A program made the position numbers and the translations under genes. Under the pieces are notes generated by a model. The model was given only the letters and a program-made list of their open reading frames with translations, was not told the DNA's origin and searched no databases. From contig CAMDKK010000021.1 of assembly GCA_945901045.1 (NCBI GenBank), positions 1 to 56,865 on the forward strand: a stretch of DNA of 56,865 nt, written 5' to 3'. This DNA comes from Limnohabitans sp. Rim8. Its GTDB lineage: Bacteria > Pseudomonadota > Gammaproteobacteria > Burkholderiales > Burkholderiaceae_C. Positions 7,986 through 42,467 of the stretch are shown here, one piece after another. Within the stretch, counting starts at the first letter, position 1. Each line of letters starts with the position of its first letter.

Positions 7986-8687
7986 ATGCTCAAACGACAG
8001 TTCAGTGCCTTCACCCTGATCTCTGCAGTATCGCTCATGGCACATTTTCGCGACGCGCAAGCGATATCCTGGGCCGATGTGACGGGAAACGACGCGTCAT
8101 CAGGACTGCAATTGGTGCTTGAAAAAGGCGCTGCCGCAGCGGTGGGCATGCTCGGCGCACAAGATGGTTTCATGGGCAATGACAAAGTGCGCATAGCCTT
8201 GCCGGGGCATTTGAATGAAGTCGCCAAATGGTTCAAGAAGATGGGCCAAGGCCAAAAAGTGGACGAATTGATCTTGGGTATGAACCGCGCGGCAGAGTCG
8301 GCCATGCCGATGGCAAAAGACATGCTGGTGGGCGCGGTCAAGTCGATGAGTCTGAGTGACGCAAAAACCATTTTGCTGGGTGGGGTCACTTCGGCCACGG
8401 ACTACTTCAACAGCAAAACCCGAGAGCCACTGGGTGTTAAATTTCTGCCAGTGATCACGCAAGCCACGGCCAAAGTGGGCTTGACAGAGAAATACAACGC
8501 GGTGGCAGGCAAAGCCGCCAGCTTAGGCATGCTCAAGCCGCAACAAGCCAGTGTAGAAGCCTACGTTACAGGCAAGGCATTGGACGGCTTGTACCTGATG
8601 ATTGCCGAAGAAGAAAAGAAAATCCGGCAAAATCCGATGGCCTCAGGCAGCGCTTTATTGGCCAAGGTCTTTGGCGCCAGCAAGTAA
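7986..8687 (+). CDS. DUF4197 family protein, exported
   Basis: A 233-residue protein of the uncharacterised DUF4197 family. After a signal peptide (MLKRQFSAFTLISAVSLMAH, then cleavage near DAQA) it shows the family marks: a KVRIALPGHL segment, the AAESAMPMAKDMLVGAVKSM helix, and DAKTILLGGVTSATDYFNSK followed by TREPLGVKF. No enzymatic motif is visible and the function is unknown. GGAAG lies eight bases before the ATG at 7986; a longer frame upstream runs through the divergent tlpA-like gene and is not credible. It ends seven bases from the convergent CoA-transferase. Confidence 0.82.
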   Translation: MLKRQFSAFTLISAVSLMAHFRDAQAISWADVTGNDASSGLQLVLEKGAAAAVGMLGAQDGFMGNDKVRIALPGHLNEVAKWFKKMGQGQKVDELILGMNRAAESAMPMAKDMLVGAVKSMSLSDAKTILLGGVTSATDYFNSKTREPLGVKFLPVITQATAKVGLTEKYNAVAGKAASLGMLKPQQASVEAYVTGKALDGLYLMIAEEEKKIRQNPMASGSALLAKVFGASK

Positions 8688-8694
8688 GCGCGGC

Positions 8695-9939
8695 TCAAAT
8701 CACGCCTTGCCCACGCATTTGGGCCAGTTGCGTGGCCGAGTAACCCAGCAACTGAGTCAACACCTCATCGGTATGTTGGCCCAACAAGGGGGGCGGCAAA
8801 TCCGTGCGAACAGGCGTTTCGCTGAGTTTGAGCGGGCTGGCCATCAAACGCAGTTTGGGCTCGATGGGGTGATTCCAGGACGTGATCATGTGACGCGCTT
8901 GCACATGCGGATCGGCCACCACCTCGGCCAAATTGTTGATGGCGCCGCAAGGCACTTTGGCCGCTTCCAACGCGGTTAACCATTCGGCTTTGCTGCGTGT
9001 TTTTAAGATAGCCTCAAGCAAAGGGACCAGCTCAGCACGGTTGATCACCCGGCCTGAGTTTTTGGCATAACGCGGGTCGGCGGCAATCTCGGGGTGACCA
9101 GCGACAGCGCAAAACTTGACAAACTGGCCATCGTTGCCCACGGCCAAGATCAAATGGTCCTTGACTCCGGGTGCCGCGTTGGGTGGTGCTTGGACCTCAA
9201 ACACCTGGTAAGGCACGATGTTTTGGTGCGCATTGCCCGCACGACCTGGCACTTTGCCACTCACCAGGTAGTTGGCACCCAGATTGGCGAGCATCGCCAC
9301 TTGGGTGTCCAACAGAGACATGTCCACCCATTGCCCTTGGCCGGTTTGATCGGCATGACGCAGCGCCGCCAAAATACCCACCGTGGCGTACATGCCGGTG
9401 AATAAATCGGCTACTGCGACCCCTACTTTCTGCGGGCCGCCGCCCAAATCGTCGCGCTCGCCGGTGATGCTCATCAAGCCGCCTATGCCTTGCACCGCAT
9501 AGTCGTAGCCTGCGCGGTCGGCATAGGGGCCTGTTTGGCCAAAACCAGTCACGCTGCAATACACCAACTTGGGGTTGAGTATTTTCAGACTGTCGTAATC
9601 CAGTCCGTACCGCGCCATGTCCCCAACCTTGAAGTTTTCAATGAACACATTGCAATGCAGCACCAATTCACGAATCAAGGCTTGGCCCACAGGCGAGGCA
9701 ATGTCGCAGGTCAGTGAGCGTTTATTCCGGTTGGTGCCCAAGAAGTAGGCTGCTTCGGCGGTGTCACGCCCTTGCGCGTCTTTCAAAAAAGGCGGCCCCC
9801 AGGTGCGTGTGTCGTCGCCCGTGACGGGGCGTTCGATTTTGATGACATCGGCGCCCAGATCCGCCAGGGTCTGGGTACACCATGGACCGGCCAATACGCG
9901 GGACAGGTCAAGAACGCGAATACCATGCAAAGAGTTCAT
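8695..9939 (-). CDS. CaiB/BaiF family (class III) CoA-transferase
   Basis: A 414-residue class III CoA-transferase that would move CoA between carboxylic acids; formyl-, succinyl- or carnitine-type substrates are all possible. The start MNSLHGIRVLDLSRVLAGPWCTQ and the DLGADVIKIERP strand are typical. The catalytic aspartate should be in RAGYDYAVQGIGGLM, followed by GVAVADLFTGMYATVGILAAL and GQWVDMSLLDTQ. The open frame continues 89 codons upstream but loses family similarity, so the ATG at 9939 is chosen. The substrate cannot be told from the sequence. The start lies 43 bases from the divergent lipoprotein gene. Confidence 0.9.
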   Translation of the reverse strand: MNSLHGIRVLDLSRVLAGPWCTQTLADLGADVIKIERPVTGDDTRTWGPPFLKDAQGRDTAEAAYFLGTNRNKRSLTCDIASPVGQALIRELVLHCNVFIENFKVGDMARYGLDYDSLKILNPKLVYCSVTGFGQTGPYADRAGYDYAVQGIGGLMSITGERDDLGGGPQKVGVAVADLFTGMYATVGILAALRHADQTGQGQWVDMSLLDTQVAMLANLGANYLVSGKVPGRAGNAHQNIVPYQVFEVQAPPNAAPGVKDHLILAVGNDGQFVKFCAVAGHPEIAADPRYAKNSGRVINRAELVPLLEAILKTRSKAEWLTALEAAKVPCGAINNLAEVVADPHVQARHMITSWNHPIEPKLRLMASPLKLSETPVRTDLPPPLLGQHTDEVLTQLLGYSATQLAQMRGQGVI

Positions 9940-35486: not shown

Positions 35487-35786
35487 ATGTCATTGACCTC
35501 TCAGGACATCGACCGGATCGCCAATTTGGCCCGGTTGGATCTCCAACCGGAAGAACGCGAGCGCATGCTGGCGCAAATCAATGGCTTTTTTGGCATCGTC
35601 GAAGCCATGCAGGCCGTGGACACCACCGGCATCGAGCCGATGGCCCACCCCGTGGCCGCCATCCAGGACATTACGCTGCGTCTTCGCCCCGACGTGGCCA
35701 GCGAGCCCAACCAACGCGAAGCCAACCAACGCAGCGCTCCCGCTGTTGAGCGTGGCCTGTTTTTGGTACCGAAAGTGATCGAGTAA
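35487..35786 (+). CDS. gatC: Asp-tRNA(Asn)/Glu-tRNA(Gln) amidotransferase subunit C
   Basis: GatC stabilises the GatCAB complex, which turns misacylated Glu-tRNA(Gln) or Asp-tRNA(Asn) into the correct amides. The 99-residue product has the family pattern: [20 protein letters not shown], then a linker [20 protein letters not shown] and the C-terminal [15 protein letters not shown]. gatA follows after three bases. The gene order gatC-gatA is usual; the next expected gene, gatB, is displaced by 2.2 kb. Confidence 0.95.
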
Positions 35787-35789
35787 GCC

Positions 35790-37250
35790 ATGAGTGATCT
35801 GCACACCCTCAGTGTGAAAGCGTTGGCCAGCCTTTTACAAACCAAACAAGTCAGCGCCGTCGAAGTGGCCACCCGCTTTCTGGCCCGCTTGGGCGGCAAT
35901 CCGCACAACGCCTTTTTGGACATCGACAGCGAAGTCACGCTGGCCCAGGCCCGCGCTTCGGACGCCAAATTGGCGGCCGCAACCGCCGGTCCGCTCGAAG
36001 GCGTGCCGGTGGCCCACAAAGACGTGTTTGTCACCCGCGACTTCGTCACCACCGCAGGCTCCAAAATTTTGCAAGGCTACCGCTCGCCGTTTGACGCGAC
36101 TGTGGTGCAGCGCTTGGCGCAAGCCGGTATGGTCTCCCTGGGCAAGCTCAATTGCGACGAGTTCGCCATGGGCTCGGCCAACGAAAACTCGGCCTATGGC
36201 GCCGTGACCAACCCCTGGGACACGGCCCGCGTGCCCGGCGGTTCGTCGGGTGGCAGCGCCGCTGCCGTGGCTGCGCGACTGGTGCCCGCCGCCACCGGCA
36301 CCGACACGGGCGGCTCAATCCGCCAACCGGCCAGCTTTTGCGGCATCACCGGCATCAAGCCGACCTATGGCCGCGCCAGCCGCTACGGCATGATCGCCTA
36401 CGCCTCCAGCCTCGACCAAGCCGGCCCCATCGCCCGCAGCGCCGAAGACTGCGCCCTGTTGCTGAGCGCCATGTGCGGCCCCGACCTGGACCGCGACTCC
36501 ACCTCGCTGGACATGCCCTGCGAGGACTTCAACGCTGGGTTGAACAACCCGATTGAAGGCCTGCGCATTGGCATTCCGAAAGAGTTTTTTGGCGAAGGCC
36601 TGCACGCCGATGTGCGCGCTGCCGTGGACGGCGCTTTGCGCGAATTCGAAAAGCTGGGCGCCCAACTGGTGCCCATCAGCCTGCCGCGCACCGAGTTGTC
36701 GATTCCGGTGTACTACATCATTGCCCCGGCCGAAGCCAGCTCCAACCTGAGCCGCTTTGACGGCGTGAAGTTCGGCCATCGCGCCAAGGACTATGTGGAC
36801 CTGATAGACATGTACAAAAAGACCCGCGCCGAAGGCTTTGGCAACGAGGTCAAACGCCGCATCATGACCGGTGCCTATGTGCTGAGCCACGGCTACTACG
36901 ATGCGTATTACCTGCAAGCGCAAAAGATCCGCCGCATGATTGCCGACGATTTCCAAAACGCCTTTAAAACATGCGATGTGATCGCTGGCCCTGTCGCCCC
37001 GTCTGTGGCCTGGAAGATGGGTGAGAACGCCAACGACCCGGTGGCCGACTATTTGGCCGACATCTTCACCCTGCCTGCATCGTTGGCCGGTCTGCCCGGT
37101 ATGAGCTTGCCCGCAGGCTTTGGCGCGCATGGCATGCCCGTTGGCCTGCAATTGATTGGCAACTACTTCAAAGAAGCCCAGTTGCTGAACGCTGCGCACT
37201 GCTTGCAGCAAGCCACCGATTGGCACTCACAAAAGCCCAAGGAAATTTGA
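35790..37250 (+). CDS. gatA: Asp-tRNA(Asn)/Glu-tRNA(Gln) amidotransferase subunit A
   Basis: GatA is the glutaminase subunit that frees ammonia for GatB. The 486-residue product has the amidase-signature triad Lys77 ([10 protein letters not shown]), Ser152 in [13 protein letters not shown] and the nucleophile Ser176 in [14 protein letters not shown]. The conserved [20 protein letters not shown] segment distinguishes GatA from other amidases. Base composition is clearly GC-rich, unlike the cassette that follows one base after its stop. An AAGGAAA site in its last codons serves the next gene. Confidence 0.97.
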
Positions 37251-37251
37251 C

Positions 37252-38469
37252 ATGCAAAACGCATCTGATGAAGCCATTGCCCACCTTATCGCAGTTGGTG
37301 AGTCCTATCGATGCGAATTTAAAAGCAACTTCTCTAGCAAAGGAGATGGCAAGGAAAAAATATGTCGCACGATCTGTGCATTTGCAAACGACTTGAACGG
37401 AAAAGAAGAATTTGGTGTTATTGCCTTGGGTATAAATGACGATGGAACCCCAAGTGGCCTCACCATTGATGACGAGCTCGAGCAAAAGGTCATGTCCATT
37501 CGTGGCGATGGTAAGGTCATTCCTTTCCCCAGTTTTATTGCAGTTCGGCGCAAGCACAGAGGTCAAGTTTTTTTATCAATTGAGGTGCGCCCAAGCACTT
37601 CACCTCCTGTTAAATATGATCAGCGCATCTGGGTACGCCCAGGCAACACCACTCAGTTGGCAAATGGCCAAGAAGAGCTTCTTCTGAATGAGAAGCGTCG
37701 CAACAAAGATCAACCTGATGACACCCAAGTTCTTGAGGGTTTTTATCTCAATGACTTGAATCTCGACTATTTCAAAAGTCAATATTTGGTGCAAGCCTTT
37801 GCCACTGATGTGCTTCAAGCCAATGGACGTACCGATAATGAACGCCTTGCCAGCACAAAGATGATTGGCTATGGAAGGGACGGTGCGCTGTACCCCACCG
37901 TTCTGGGGATGCTGTGCCTTGGCCTTTCCCCCGCAGACGCTGTGCCAGGGGCCTATGTGCAATTTGTCCGCTTCGCAGGCGACGACGAAGCCTGCCCAGT
38001 GATGGATCAACAGGAAGTTCACGGCAACATCGCCGATGTCATTCAAAGCATCGAAGCGAAGTTCAATGCCCACAACCAGATACCAATTGACTTCACTTCA
38101 CAAGACCGTGAACAGCAGTTTTCACAATACCCCAAAGTCGCGTTTCAACAATTATTTCGCAATGCTGTGATGCATCGAAGCTACTTTGGCAGCAACGCCC
38201 CCATTCGTGTGTATTGGTTCAATGACCGAATTCGCATTACCAATCCTGGTGGACCATTTGGAATGGGACTTGAAGAATTCGGCAGACCCTATGCTGTCGG
38301 ATATCGCAACCCGAACTTGGCTGGTGCATTGAAAGACCTTGGCTTTGTGCAACGCTTTGGTGCTGGCATTGGTCTGGCACGCACCGAACTGCACAACAAC
38401 GGCAATCCGCCCTTAGAGCCAGACCCCAGTGCAAACTACGTGAGCATGACCATGCGAAAACGACCATGA
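37252..38469 (+). CDS. AlbA_2 (Schlafen-like) plus GHKL ATPase protein, inserted in gat operon
   Basis: A 405-residue two-domain protein. Residues about 14-150 resemble the AlbA_2/Schlafen-like putative nucleic-acid-binding domain: ESYRCEFKSNF, ICRTICAFANDLNGKEEFGV, then RIWVRPGNTTQLA. Residues about 290-400 resemble the RecG-like GHKL ATPase module: FQQLFRNAVMHRSYF (Asn304, His308), DRIRITNPGGPF and QRFGAGIGLAR. Proteins of this layout act as regulators or defence components elsewhere; the role here is unknown. It starts one base after gatA, overlaps the ParA-like gene by four bases, and is less GC-rich than the gat genes, suggesting transfer. Confidence 0.82.
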   Translation: MQNASDEAIAHLIAVGESYRCEFKSNFSSKGDGKEKICRTICAFANDLNGKEEFGVIALGINDDGTPSGLTIDDELEQKVMSIRGDGKVIPFPSFIAVRRKHRGQVFLSIEVRPSTSPPVKYDQRIWVRPGNTTQLANGQEELLLNEKRRNKDQPDDTQVLEGFYLNDLNLDYFKSQYLVQAFATDVLQANGRTDNERLASTKMIGYGRDGALYPTVLGMLCLGLSPADAVPGAYVQFVRFAGDDEACPVMDQQEVHGNIADVIQSIEAKFNAHNQIPIDFTSQDREQQFSQYPKVAFQQLFRNAVMHRSYFGSNAPIRVYWFNDRIRITNPGGPFGMGLEEFGRPYAVGYRNPNLAGALKDLGFVQRFGAGIGLARTELHNNGNPPLEPDPSANYVSMTMRKRP

Positions 38470-39473
38470 CCAAACCCGTTTTTACTTTTTTCAATAACAA
38501 AGGTGGTGTCGGAAAAACCACTTTGGTCTATCACATCGCGCACATGTTTGCGCTGATGGGTGTAAGCGTCTTGGCAGTCGATTGCGATCCACAGGCGAAC
38601 CTCAGTGCTGCATTTTTGCGAGATGAAGCACTCCAAGAGCTTTGGGACGACGCAGCGTGCGCTCAAACCATTTACCGCGCTGTGCGACCGATGGTTAGAA
38701 AAGGCGATTACGTTTCTCCAAAATTACTTGAGATCACACCGAATTTACACCTGATTGCTGGAGACTTGGGTCTGTCTTCGTTTGAAGATCAATTGTCTGA
38801 GCAATGGAGCAATGCCAATTCTGACAACCTAGACACCTATGGGCGGGCATTTGATATCTTGACCGCGTTTTGGCGCTGCGCCCAAGAAGCGGCCACAAAC
38901 TGCCAAGCTGAGATCATCATCTTCGATATAGGGCCGAATTTGGGAGCTATCAATCGATCTGTTTTGTTGGGCACTGACCACGTCATAGTTCCGTTGGGTG
39001 CAGATTTATTTTCTTTGCGCGGCTTGCAAAACATAGGACCTGCTTTGCGTGAGTGGCATCGCTCTTGGGAAACCCGCAGTACCAAGCCGTTCAGTGACTA
39101 CGACTTACCTAAAGGCGATATGCATGTTCTGGGCTATGTCGCCATGCAGCACCAAGAGCGCCTGTACCGTCCAGTCCAAGCCTACAAACAGTGGGTAGAC
39201 CGCATTCCTTCTGATTACCGCAGGTACATTGAAGAAGTTTCAACAGACGATGTACCAAAAATTGAAGATGATCCCTTTGCACTGGCGCTACTACGCCACT
39301 ACAAAAGCATTATCCCCATCGGACAAGAGGCCCGTAAACCCATTTTTTCTTTGAAAACCGCAGATGGCGTGAGTGGTTCGCAAATGGCTACTGTTAAAGC
39401 AGCTTATGACGACTTTCAAAGCCTTGCATTTCAAATATTGGCCAAATCCAATCTCAGTGATCTTGTTTTATGA
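38466..39473 (+). CDS. ParA/MinD-family ATPase, inserted in gat operon
   Basis: A 335-residue deviant Walker-type ATPase. The P-loop is [11 protein letters not shown] (residues 10-20) with the signature lysine; the A' motif is [16 protein letters not shown] and Walker [16 protein letters not shown]. It is longer than typical plasmid ParA, with an extended C-terminal third that includes [20 protein letters not shown] and no helix-turn-helix I can see. No ParB gene or parS-like site is adjacent, so classical partition is unlikely. It overlaps the AlbA_2/GHKL gene by four bases and gatB by four, so it is bound into the operon at both ends. Confidence 0.85.
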
Positions 39474-40969
39474 CATCCAAACTTGTCCAAGGCTACGAAG
39501 TCGTCATCGGCTTTGAAACGCACACCCAGCTCTCTACACAGAGCAAAATTTTCAGCCGCGCATCGGTGGCGTTTGGCGCCGAGCCCAACACCCAAGCCTG
39601 CGCGGTCGATATGGCTCTGCCAGGCGCCTTGCCGGTGATGAACGTGGGCGCGGTGGAACGCGCCATCGAGTTCGGCTTGGCGGTGAATTCGCACATTGCC
39701 GAACGCAGCATCTTTGCGCGCAAAAACTACTTCTACCCCGACCTGCCCAAGGGCTACCAGATCAGCCAATTTGAGATCCCGGTGGTGCAAGGCGGCGAGG
39801 TGTCGTTCTTCATGGATGAAGGCAAGGAAACCGTGCGCAAAACAGTCCGGCTGGAGCGTGCCCACCTCGAAGAAGACGCGGGCAAATCGCTGCACGAGGA
39901 TTCGAGCTTGGGAGCCTCCACCGGAGATGGCCGGGGCCAATCTGGCATCGACTTGAACCGCGCCGGCACGCCGCTGCTGGAAATCGTGACCCAGCCCGAC
40001 ATGCGCTCCAGCGCCGAAGCTGTGGCCTATGCCAAAGAACTGCACAAGATCGTGACCTGGGTCGGCATCTGCGACGGCAACATGCAAGAAGGCAGTTTCC
40101 GTTGCGACGCCAATGTGTCAGTGCGCAAGCCCGGCGATCCGCTGGGCACGCGCCGCGAGATCAAGAACCTGAACAGTTTCAAGTTCATGCAGCAGGCCAT
40201 CGACTACGAAGTGCGCTGGCAGATCGACCAGATCGAAGACGGCCACGCCATCCAGCAAGCCACGGTGCTGTTCGACCCCGACACGGGCGAGACGCGTGCC
40301 ATGCGCACCAAGGAAGACGCCGCCGACTACCGCTACTTTCCTGATCCGGACCTGCCGCCGCTGGTGATAAGCCGCGACTGGGTCGAGCGCGTGCGCAGCG
40401 AAATGGCTGAGCTGCCCCGCGTGATGGCCGAGCGTTTTGTCAAAGACTACGCACTGCCCGAATACGATGCGACCCAGTTGACGCAAAGCAAAGCCGTTGC
40501 CGCCTACTTTGAGGCCACGGCCAAAGCCTGCGGCCAGGCCAAACTGGCCAGCAACTGGATCATGGGCGAAGTCTCACGCCGCCTGAACGCGAGTGAAATG
40601 GGTATCGAGCAAGCGCCGGTGAGCGCCGCGCAGCTGGCCGCCTTGATCGGCCGCATCAGCGACAACACCATCAGCAACAACGCGGCGCGCCAGGTGTTTG
40701 AAGGCCTTTGGAACAAAGAAGGCCCCTCTGGTAGCGAGGGCGATGTCGACGCCCTCATCGAAGCCAAAGGCCTCAAGCAGATGAACGACACCGGCGAGCT
40801 GGAAAAAATCATCGACGATGTGCTTGCCGCCAACCCCAAGAACGTGGAAGAGTTCAAGGCGGGCAACACCAAAGCACTGAACGGCCTGGTCGGCCCGATC
40901 ATGAAGGCCAGCAAAGGCAAGGCCAATCCAGGTCAGGTGAATGCGCTGTTGATGAAGAAGCTGAGGTAA
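39470..40969 (+). CDS. gatB: Asp-tRNA(Asn)/Glu-tRNA(Gln) amidotransferase subunit B
   Basis: GatB binds tRNA, phosphorylates the misacylated residue and amidates it. The 499-residue product shows the cradle-domain signatures [20 protein letters not shown] and [20 protein letters not shown], the family pattern [20 protein letters not shown], and the C-terminal YqeY-like tail ending [20 protein letters not shown]. It starts inside the stop of the ParA-like gene (ATGA) with no clear ribosome binding site, so it now depends on coupling to the inserted cassette. Confidence 0.97.
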
Positions 40970-40979
40970 GCGTTAAAAT

Positions 40980-41003
40980 TATGCGCATACCTACATGCGC
41001 ATG
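40980..41003. promoter_or_regulatory. Twin 10-bp palindromes at the ccdA start
   Basis: TATGCGCATA (40980-40989) and CATGCGCATG (40994-41003) share the palindromic core ATGCGCAT, with the cores 14 bases apart. They lie just before the ccdA coding region. Paired palindromes at this place are usual for antitoxin self-repression, so this is a candidate CcdA operator. Confidence 0.5.
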
Positions 41004-41012
41004 CAGATCGCT

Positions 41013-41276
41013 ATGCCCGCCACCTACACTGCCCGTCGCGTGCGCACCAGCGCATCTGGCAAACGCGCGACCAACCTGAGCTTGAGCAGCGATGTGCTTG
41101 ACGCGGCAAAGCACCTCGAAATCAACATTTCGCAGGTCTGCGACAACCACCTGCGTGAAGTGGTGCGCCGCGAACAGGCGCGCAAATGGCGCGAGGATCA
41201 CGCCGATTTCATCGCGGCGTACAACACGACCATCGAGTCTGAAGGCCTGCCACTGGACGAGTGGAAAAGTTTCTGA
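41013..41276 (+). CDS. ccdA: CcdA-family antitoxin
   Basis: The antitoxin of a CcdAB-type module, which normally binds and neutralises the gyrase poison CcdB and represses its own operon. The 87-residue product has a DNA-binding ribbon-helix-helix start (RATNLSLSSDVLDAAKHLEI) and the toxin-binding tail AYNTTIESEGLPLDEWKSF, a strong family mark. ATG 41013 gives the usual start and leaves the twin palindromes upstream; ATG 40995 is also in frame. Its stop overlaps the ccdB start by one base (TGATG). Confidence 0.88.
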   Translation: MPATYTARRVRTSASGKRATNLSLSSDVLDAAKHLEINISQVCDNHLREVVRREQARKWREDHADFIAAYNTTIESEGLPLDEWKSF

Positions 41277-41455
41277 TGGCACGCTTTGACGTCTACGCCA
41301 ACCCTGGCAGTCAAGCAAGCACCACGCCCTACCTGCTGGAAACACCCAAAATGGGCGTGGTCCCAATGCGGGTTCTGAAGTCGCCCGTGACCTCGCTCGC
41401 TCAATTCCAAGACCAGATCACCGCTGCAATGGATTTTCTGTTCCAAGGCTACTGA
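41276..41455 (+). pseudogene. ccdB: CcdB toxin with internal in-frame deletion
   Basis: CcdB is about 100 residues and poisons DNA gyrase. This frame encodes only 59: the normal start MARFDVYANPGSQASTTPYLLE is joined directly to the normal end TPKMGVVPMRVLKSPVTSLA and AMDFLFQGY. About 40 central residues, which form much of the beta core, are missing without a frameshift. The C-terminal helix used for gyrase contact and antitoxin binding remains. It is probably non-toxic, though it might still bind CcdA. Alignment was by eye against remembered family sequences. Confidence 0.75.
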
Positions 41456-41783: not shown

Positions 41784-42044
41784 ATGTCCATTCACACCGT
41801 ATCCAGCCGCGACTTCACGCGTGACGTGTCCGCTGCCAAACGCGCAGCCGTGGACGGCCCCGTGTTCATCACCGACAGGGGGCGACCTGCATTTGCCTTG
41901 CTAAAGATCGACGACTATTACCGCATGACCGGAAAACTGCCGCCATCCCTCTTAGATGTGATGGATGGCATTGCGGGCGGAGAGCACATCGATTTCGATC
42001 CGCCCCGGCTGAATATCCTGATCCAGGCGGCCTCACTGGATTGA
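41784..42044 (+). CDS. Phd/YefM-family antitoxin
   Basis: An 86-residue antitoxin that should bind DNA through its N-terminal Phd fold and neutralise the toxin with its C-terminal part. Family marks are IHTVSSRDFTRDVSAAKRAA, then GPVFITDRGRPAFALLKIDD and YYRMTG. It is followed nine bases later by a PIN-domain toxin gene with an AGGGAGCC site, a common antitoxin-toxin order. The pair sits between remnants that look like mazF and mazE on the other strand. Confidence 0.88.
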   Translation: MSIHTVSSRDFTRDVSAAKRAAVDGPVFITDRGRPAFALLKIDDYYRMTGKLPPSLLDVMDGIAGGEHIDFDPPRLNILIQAASLD

Positions 42045-42053
42045 GGGAGCCTT

Positions 42054-42467
42054 ATGTTCATCTTGGACACCAACGTCATTTCCGAACTGCGCCAAGGCAA
42101 AACCGCGCAATCCATGGCTGTTCGCCAGTGGGCTTCGACACAACCCAGCAATCAGCTTTTCCTGTCCGCTATCACGCTTTTGGAACTGGAGTTGGGCATT
42201 CAAGCCTTACAGCGTAAAACGCCCCCGCAAGGCAGTGCTTTGCGGGCTTGGCTTACGGGTGTTCGCGCCGCTTTTGCAGGGCGCATTTTGCCGTTTGCGG
42301 AAAACACCGCACCCTTGTGTGCATCTCTGCACATTCCCAATCCACGCTCGGAACGCGACGCGATGATTGCCGCGACCGCCCTTGAGCACAAATTCACCGT
42401 GGTGACGCGCAACGTGTCGGACTTTGAGGCCACAGGTGTTGCGCTGTTGAATCCTTGGTTCGGTTAA
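42054..42467 (+). CDS. vapC: VapC-type PIN-domain toxin
   Basis: A 137-residue PIN-domain ribonuclease toxin; the family cuts tRNA or rRNA. The acidic metal ligands look intact: Asp5 in MFILDTNVIS, Glu44 in ITLLELELGI, Asp102 in NPRSERDAMIAATA, with Asn120 and Asp123 in TRNVSDFEATG. The end LLNPW is common in the subgroup paired with Phd antitoxins. It is intact, unlike the decayed relative at 45681-45930. Confidence 0.9.
   Translation: MFILDTNVISELRQGKTAQSMAVRQWASTQPSNQLFLSAITLLELELGIQALQRKTPPQGSALRAWLTGVRAAFAGRILPFAENTAPLCASLHIPNPRSERDAMIAATALEHKFTVVTRNVSDFEATGVALLNPWFG

Follow-up and report, generated by a model that had tools for sequence, protein, structure and literature searches.

A two-gene cassette within the gatCAB operon

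The window analyzed here, a stretch of 56,865 nucleotides from Limnohabitans sp. Rim8, carries a two-gene cassette lodged within the gatCAB operon, with all genes on the forward strand in the order gatC-gatA-ALB-PARA-gatB. The host operon begins with gatC (35487..35786), an open reading frame (ORF) collinear in relatives, and the upstream flank of the cassette is gatA (35790..37250; Pfam Amidase, E 8.7e-150). One base past the end of gatA starts the first cassette gene (37252..38469), which encodes ALB, a protein of 405 residues with SLFN_AlbA_2 and GHKL domains in Pfam and our candidate effector. Its stop codon overlaps the start of the second gene (38466..39473) in an ATGA at 38466..38469; this gene encodes PARA, a ParA-type deviant Walker ATPase of 335 residues (Pfam AAA_31, E 1.2e-24) and the proposed regulator, antitoxin or sensor. 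A second ATGA (39470..39473) joins the stop of PARA to the start of gatB (39470..40969; Pfam GatB_N, E 4.5e-112, plus GatB_Yqey), the downstream flank. An earlier, sequence-only reading of this DNA had placed the cassette inside gatCAB with this one-base gap and these two overlaps, and the ORF coordinates agree with it exactly. Among distinct gat copies, the four-base overlap is present in 8 of 10 between ALB and PARA and in 10 of 10 between PARA and gatB, and PARA and gatB are likely to be translationally coupled through it; the further proposals of the sequence-only reading, that gatB translation depends on the cassette and that this guards it against loss, are hypothetical.

The cassette also differs from its flanks in composition, as the same reading had noted. 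The gat genes overall have a GC content of 60-62% and a GC content at third codon positions (GC3) of 74-79% (62.3 and 78.0% for gatA, 60.5 and 78.6% for gatB), compared to 48-49% and 48% for the cassette (48.9 and 48.3% for ALB, 47.7 and 47.9% for PARA). In every gat-located relative measured, both values for ALB and PARA were below those of the measured gatA and gatB.

Pairing, gain and selection of the cassette

PARA was matched in 19 of the 299 genomes of a family sample (E 1e-15 or better) and in 31 of the 398 genomes of a phylum sample (E 1e-18 or better); a second ParA match in the host genome (L002, 22% identity) was excluded from all tallies. In a genus sample it was found in 4/60 genomes, the Rim8 stretch included, the remaining 56, some of them incomplete, being without a PARA match; among genus genomes with a completeness of 90% or more and a contamination of 5% or less the count was 4/36. 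Three of these carriers have the cassette in gat, namely Rim8 and two whose DNA is the same as that of the loci from PBBC1 and Limnohabitans sp. T6-5, while the fourth has no gat gene within the 2.6 kb fetched. Rather than all close relatives carrying both genes between gatA and gatB, most sampled relatives lack the cassette.

Where PARA is present at 36% identity or more, ALB is almost always beside it. This threshold was chosen post hoc, a locus at 35% (L074) being without ALB. In the family sample, 11 genomes had PARA at this level and ALB lay directly upstream in all 11, four times in the gat operon (G000, G029, G110, G283) and seven times elsewhere. With PARA identity taken from tblastn, 39 distinct fetched loci reached the threshold, and ALB adjoined PARA in 38 of them, the single unpaired locus (L075) beginning inside PARA at a contig end. 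Ten of the 39 sit in gat, L026 being seen from the gatB side only; the carriers include Limnohabitans sp. WS1 and T6-5, Rhodoferax sp. UBA6134, Allofranklinella schreckenbergeri, two Comamonadaceae metagenome-assembled genomes (MAGs) and one Burkholderiales MAG. The pair does co-occur elsewhere, as the sequence-only reading had required, and most loci lie outside gat.

The ten gat-located PARA proteins formed one clade (99/92) in a tree of 59 rows, as did the gat-located ALB proteins (100/100) in a tree of 31 rows, and ALB and PARA distances were correlated (r 0.84, n=31). The PARA tree left out refetched loci (L023, L038-L047, L084-L097, L099-L103) and PARA sequences shorter than 290 residues; the ALB tree additionally left out L054 and L073. 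Since the gat copies are one clade, the gat site was probably occupied once. We suggest that the cassette probably entered the gatA-gatB junction a single time in Comamonadaceae and was then inherited, lost and exchanged there.

Divergence of the cassette was out of step with that of its flanks. Between loci L021 and L022, synonymous divergence (dS) was 0.05 for ALB and 0.02 for PARA, vs. 0.22 for gatA and 0.29 for gatB; between Rim8 and L021 it was 1.71 and 1.28 for ALB and PARA, vs. 0.51 and 0.57 for gatA and gatB, a difference to which gat codon bias may contribute. L021 and L024 were 89-100% identical in ALB, 74-85% in PARA and 85-98% in gatA and gatB. Judged by the single gat clade, the patchy distribution, the lower GC content and the divergence unlike that of the flanks, the cassette is a horizontally gained unit, as the sequence-only reading had proposed. 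The ratio of nonsynonymous to synonymous divergence (dN/dS) was 0.036-0.139 for both genes in the 7 pairs, out of 8, for which dS was finite, showing that ALB and PARA are both under purifying selection.

The gatA-gatB junction is itself a recurrent insertion point, though one with few independent events. Among the matches listed (134 and 129 genomes of the 299 searched, gaps read by hand), gaps of more than 250 bases occurred at 10/134 gatA-gatB junctions vs. 0/129 gatC-gatA junctions (Fisher p 0.0017, or 0.007 once G173 and one insert of a same-genus pair are left out), p values that overstate independence because the three cassette cases belong to one clade. Three of the ten large gaps are ALB-PARA, and a contig end deprives a fourth cassette case, G110, of its gatB match. 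Two other Comamonadaceae genera have EcoO109I-type restriction genes at this position (L028 1759-2892, L029 1699-3441), which in one of these genera share a frame with a DNA methylase. A DUF3800 gene in gat orientation occurs there in two genomes from a single genus (L034 1774-2487, L035 1696-2409; 236/237 residues identical); G188, a third member of this genus, has a short gatA-gatB gap. The inserts of about 0.5 kb in G146 and G079 hold small frames only. The 23-kb insert of G173 was rejected as cargo: the ten frames scanned, which include transporters, a proline dehydrogenase, Band_7 and ATP-grasp proteins and four without a match, represent chromosomal gene content, and we read it as a rearrangement.

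Conserved features of ALB and PARA

In ALB, the SLFN_AlbA_2 domain spans residues 17-137 (E 1.3e-16) and a GHKL domain, HATPase_c_4, residues 316-400 (E 1.9e-12). The N-terminal domain adopts a Schlafen-type fold in the predicted structure. Residues E17 and E22 correspond, with equal spacing, to the catalytic E205 and E210 of SLFN13 and are each present in 35 of 36 aligned rows, the remaining row having a gap; D63 is kept in 34/36. In the GHKL domain, the N-box Glu is replaced by Gln in 27/36 rows. These counts, and those from 62 rows of PARA below, include L038-L040, second fetches of L003-L005. Pfam gave no helix-turn-helix (HTH) match in ALB, where HATPase_c_4 stops at residue 400 of 405, and no HEPN match. 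A fold search with the ALB model returned no match seen for the GHKL part, few rows passing residue 160, where model confidence is low. The best solved relative of ALB is PDB 3lmm, DIP2311 of Corynebacterium diphtheriae, and a relative 28% identical sits between brxC and pglX on an Azotobacter plasmid.

The deviant Walker A, Walker A' and Walker B motifs of PARA are intact, with conservation of 0.95 for K12, 0.97 for K17 and 1.00 for each of D39, D41 and D154 (62 rows). Among solved structures, the one closest to PARA is 3pg5 (E 7.7e-32, residues 6-322), which we take to be DIP2308 of C. diphtheriae; this would place it near the gene for DIP2311. The direct neighbours of PARA, ALB and gatB, include no ParB, in keeping with the sequence-only reading; no search was made for parS or for ParB genes further away.

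Partners of distant ParA relatives and company of the cassette

Distant relatives of PARA have other neighbours. At 26 fetched loci with less than 36% identity, the gene directly after ParA was of the SIR2 type in 10, HEPN_RiboL-PSP in 5, RelA_SpoT in 4 and a gene without a Pfam match in 3, with no partner seen in the other 4. The sample is non-random (17 genome loci, 6 of 3764 matching plasmid records and 3 of 46 matching phage records), and partner type at some loci was assigned by similarity to a scanned representative. Two scanned SIR2 partners match the PADLOC profiles of ThsA, Dsr1 and Dsr2 in part. In the PARA tree, ALB-linked (34 rows) and SIR2-linked (9 rows) proteins each made up one group (100/99), indicating that partner type is stable within two large clades. 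The HEPN- and RelA-linked ParA proteins were scattered over more than one place in the tree, where the branching suggests that partners may have been exchanged.

Three further arrangements were seen among these relatives. In phage Pf1, the end of the annotated ParA-like Orf317 is overlapped by an unannotated HEPN_RiboL-PSP frame of 175 residues (L105 4513-5040), so that this filamentous phage has a ParA-HEPN pair. Genes of one family, encoding 183-189 residues and without a Pfam match in the one scanned, precede ParA in L076 (911-1462) and L013 (2190-2759), a RelA_SpoT gene following it, which is possibly a three-gene version. A family of 233-residue proteins without a Pfam match follows distant ParA relatives in L017 (778-1479) and L018 (2536-3237).

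Outside gat, type III restriction genes were found at 3 of the 7 family loci, in the arrangements ResIII-ALB-PARA-methyltransferase (MTase), ResIII-ALB-PARA followed by the first ~70 residues of MTase, and MTase-ALB-PARA. The defence-type company suspected by the sequence-only reading is thus present to some extent, in the form of type III and type II restriction genes and of the SIR2, HEPN and RelA/SpoT partners of distant relatives. Some copies of the cassette are broken in ALB with PARA open: a transposase-like gene (HTH_38, rve) lies inside ALB in L059/L088, the nuclease has been lost in frame in L060/L089, and L068 has a frameshifted deletion. These three loci fit, weakly, with ALB being the costly part.

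Comparison with known systems

A pairing of this general kind has been predicted before. Anantharaman et al. 2013 (PMC3710099), in the part consulted, postulate that a ParA/Soj-HEPN (MAE_18760) dyad is a toxin-antitoxin system with ParA as the antitoxin. Like ALB-PARA, that dyad consists of two genes, a ParA/Soj ATPase and an RNase-type partner, and the HEPN-linked ParA proteins, whose HEPN genes are known here as HEPN_RiboL-PSP, are distantly related to PARA. However, the partner in the cassette is a Schlafen AlbA_2 plus GHKL protein encoded upstream of ParA, whereas the HEPN genes found here lie downstream. By analogy, the cassette may still work like the ParA-HEPN dyad. A second likeness is to RNases with a Schlafen domain, a minimal histidine kinase and a winged HTH (wHTH), described in part of PMC12839542 as lying beside BREX in at least 1017 taxa. 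These share with ALB the order of a Schlafen domain followed by a histidine-kinase-type (GHKL) ATPase domain; ALB differs in having no wHTH match, in lying outside BREX, among gat neighbours, and in having a ParA partner. The statement of the sequence-only reading that no described system was known is therefore too strong: a ParA plus RNase-partner type was already predicted in 2013, and the Schlafen partner is a new variant of it. From mammalian Schlafens and the SAMD9 tRNase domain, ALB may differ in the third catalytic residue and does differ in its C-terminal parts, and the partial matches to SIR2 defence effectors (ThsA, Dsr1, Dsr2) belong to the partners of another ParA clade and not to ALB-PARA. 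Bacterial Schlafens reportedly act against phages, to go by the title of a 2025 preprint by Taboada et al. Neither a ParA-Schlafen pair nor a gat-inserted cassette was found in the literature searched, by titles and abstract openings, with few subscription papers and no bioRxiv.

A putative ParA-controlled Schlafen RNase module and its alternatives

Taking together the domains of ALB, its two Glu residues and Schlafen fold, the ParA motifs, the pairing, the exchange, the restriction company and the toxin-type partners of relatives, we lean towards the view that ALB-PARA is a ParA-controlled Schlafen RNase module, similar to toxin-antitoxin or abortive infection systems and probably directed against phage, its activity being predicted. 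In this scheme, ALB would be the effector, cleaving tRNA (or other RNA) and halting translation. Its GHKL domain would bind ATP, perhaps hydrolysing little of it because the N-box Glu is mostly Gln. PARA would act as an ATP-switched dimer that either keeps ALB inactive or frees it upon an infection signal; the tRNA target, the trigger and the sign of PARA action are all presumed. The cassette would make use of gat operon expression together with its start-stop overlaps.

Several observations weigh against this proposal. The catalytic Asp of SLFN11/13 (SLFN13 D248) aligns to ALB position 62, which is variable, the conserved D63 being one residue further; the only residue-level alignment, of SLFN11 with ALB, is ungapped and at noise level (E 0.095, with two interferon chains at 0.06), and the placement of the third catalytic residue is uncertain. 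PADLOC-DB 2.0.0 gave no full-length match for either protein, the partial matches linking ALB to pAgo-class and one other model and PARA to a 39-residue P-loop stretch. No close relative of ALB turned up in one scan of viral contigs. Ten large neighbours at nine further non-gat loci included no recognised defence gene (they are sensor kinases, MutS, an SbcC-like ATPase, FtsX, HlyD, a CoA-ligase-like protein and three without a match), leaving the idea that the cassette is always in a defence island unsupported. Lastly, ALB is not invariably the gene lost, since both genes are split in L071 and L072 and PARA in L073, and the broken copies are mostly in fragmented genomes.

The main rival is that ALB-PARA is a selfish toxin-antitoxin addiction module with no real anti-phage role, for which the gat site secures expression and retention. 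Its anatomy would be that of the ParA-HEPN dyad postulated as a toxin-antitoxin system (PMC3710099), gatB is followed at a short distance by a CcdA gene, with what is left of CcdB, and by a Phd/PIN pair, and the three loci with ALB broken and PARA open are suggestive. We nevertheless consider this explanation unlikely, given the near-constant pairing, the strong purifying selection on both genes and the restriction-gene company, none of which is decisive. Retention of E17 and E22 in nearly all rows also counts against the rather improbable view that ALB is a RecG-like or AlbA_2-type regulator without RNase activity, and PARA its accessory ATPase. HATPase_c_4 does take its name from RecG-like proteins, relatives on plasmids carry HTH, RNA-binding-domain or RecG annotations, and the third catalytic residue is not secured, but ALB ends just past its GHKL domain, with no HTH match.

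The location of the cassette raises the question of whether it could be a host regulator of tRNA amidation, in which ALB would trim or sense tRNA acceptor stems and, with PARA, tune GatCAB. GatCAB acts on misacylated tRNA, Schlafen13 is described, in the part of the source consulted, as working on the tRNA acceptor stem, and the PARA-gatB overlap is invariant among the distinct gat copies. This is only a weak rival, however, and a very improbable one, because most loci (7/11 in the family sample) lie outside gat; moreover, the gat copies are one clade at a site probably taken once, restriction genes occupy the same slot, and PARA is without a match in 56/60 genus genomes, some of which are incomplete. 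We rejected, and give almost no credence to, the idea that the cassette is left over from the partition system of a plasmid or phage: PARA is a ParA, with distant relatives on plasmids and phages, but there is no adjacent ParB, ALB is a near-constant partner and the genes are under purifying selection.

Wider implications

The cassette is carried by some freshwater bacteria, and the toxin-type partners of related ParA proteins hint at an under-described type of bacterial immunity. More speculatively, and with rather more doubt than belief, we suggest that PARA marks a general, as yet unnamed class of immune modules on chromosomes, plasmids and phages, in which a ParA sensor or brake would drive, depending on the clade, Schlafen, SIR2 NADase, HEPN RNase or RelA/SpoT-type synthetase effectors, the Schlafen branch lodging in operons (gat, type III restriction) by stop-start overlaps. 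If true, bacterial immunity would gain a Schlafen branch under ParA control, and a single family of regulators would connect Schlafen, SIR2, HEPN and RelA/SpoT, all of them known toxin types; ParA-type ATPases, best known as DNA movers, might then have been taken on to sense or restrain cell suicide. It would also mean that a cassette can be held in a protein-synthesis operon via start-stop overlaps, offer two small genes with conserved, testable residues, and give a likely role to 3pg5 and 3lmm, solved structures deposited as uncharacterised.

Genes downstream of gatB

Right after gatB (40995-41455) lies a CcdA antitoxin gene, followed by a CcdB remnant of 59 residues that covers profile positions 62-101 only. 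A pair consisting of a Phd/YefM-like antitoxin, slightly below the Pfam cut-off, and a PIN toxin is found at 41784-42467; relatives of this pair, 84-89% identical, lie 2-3 kb past gatB in L021 and L022. In the latter (Limnohabitans sp. WS1), the C-terminal part of gatB is duplicated directly after gatB (8487-8813).
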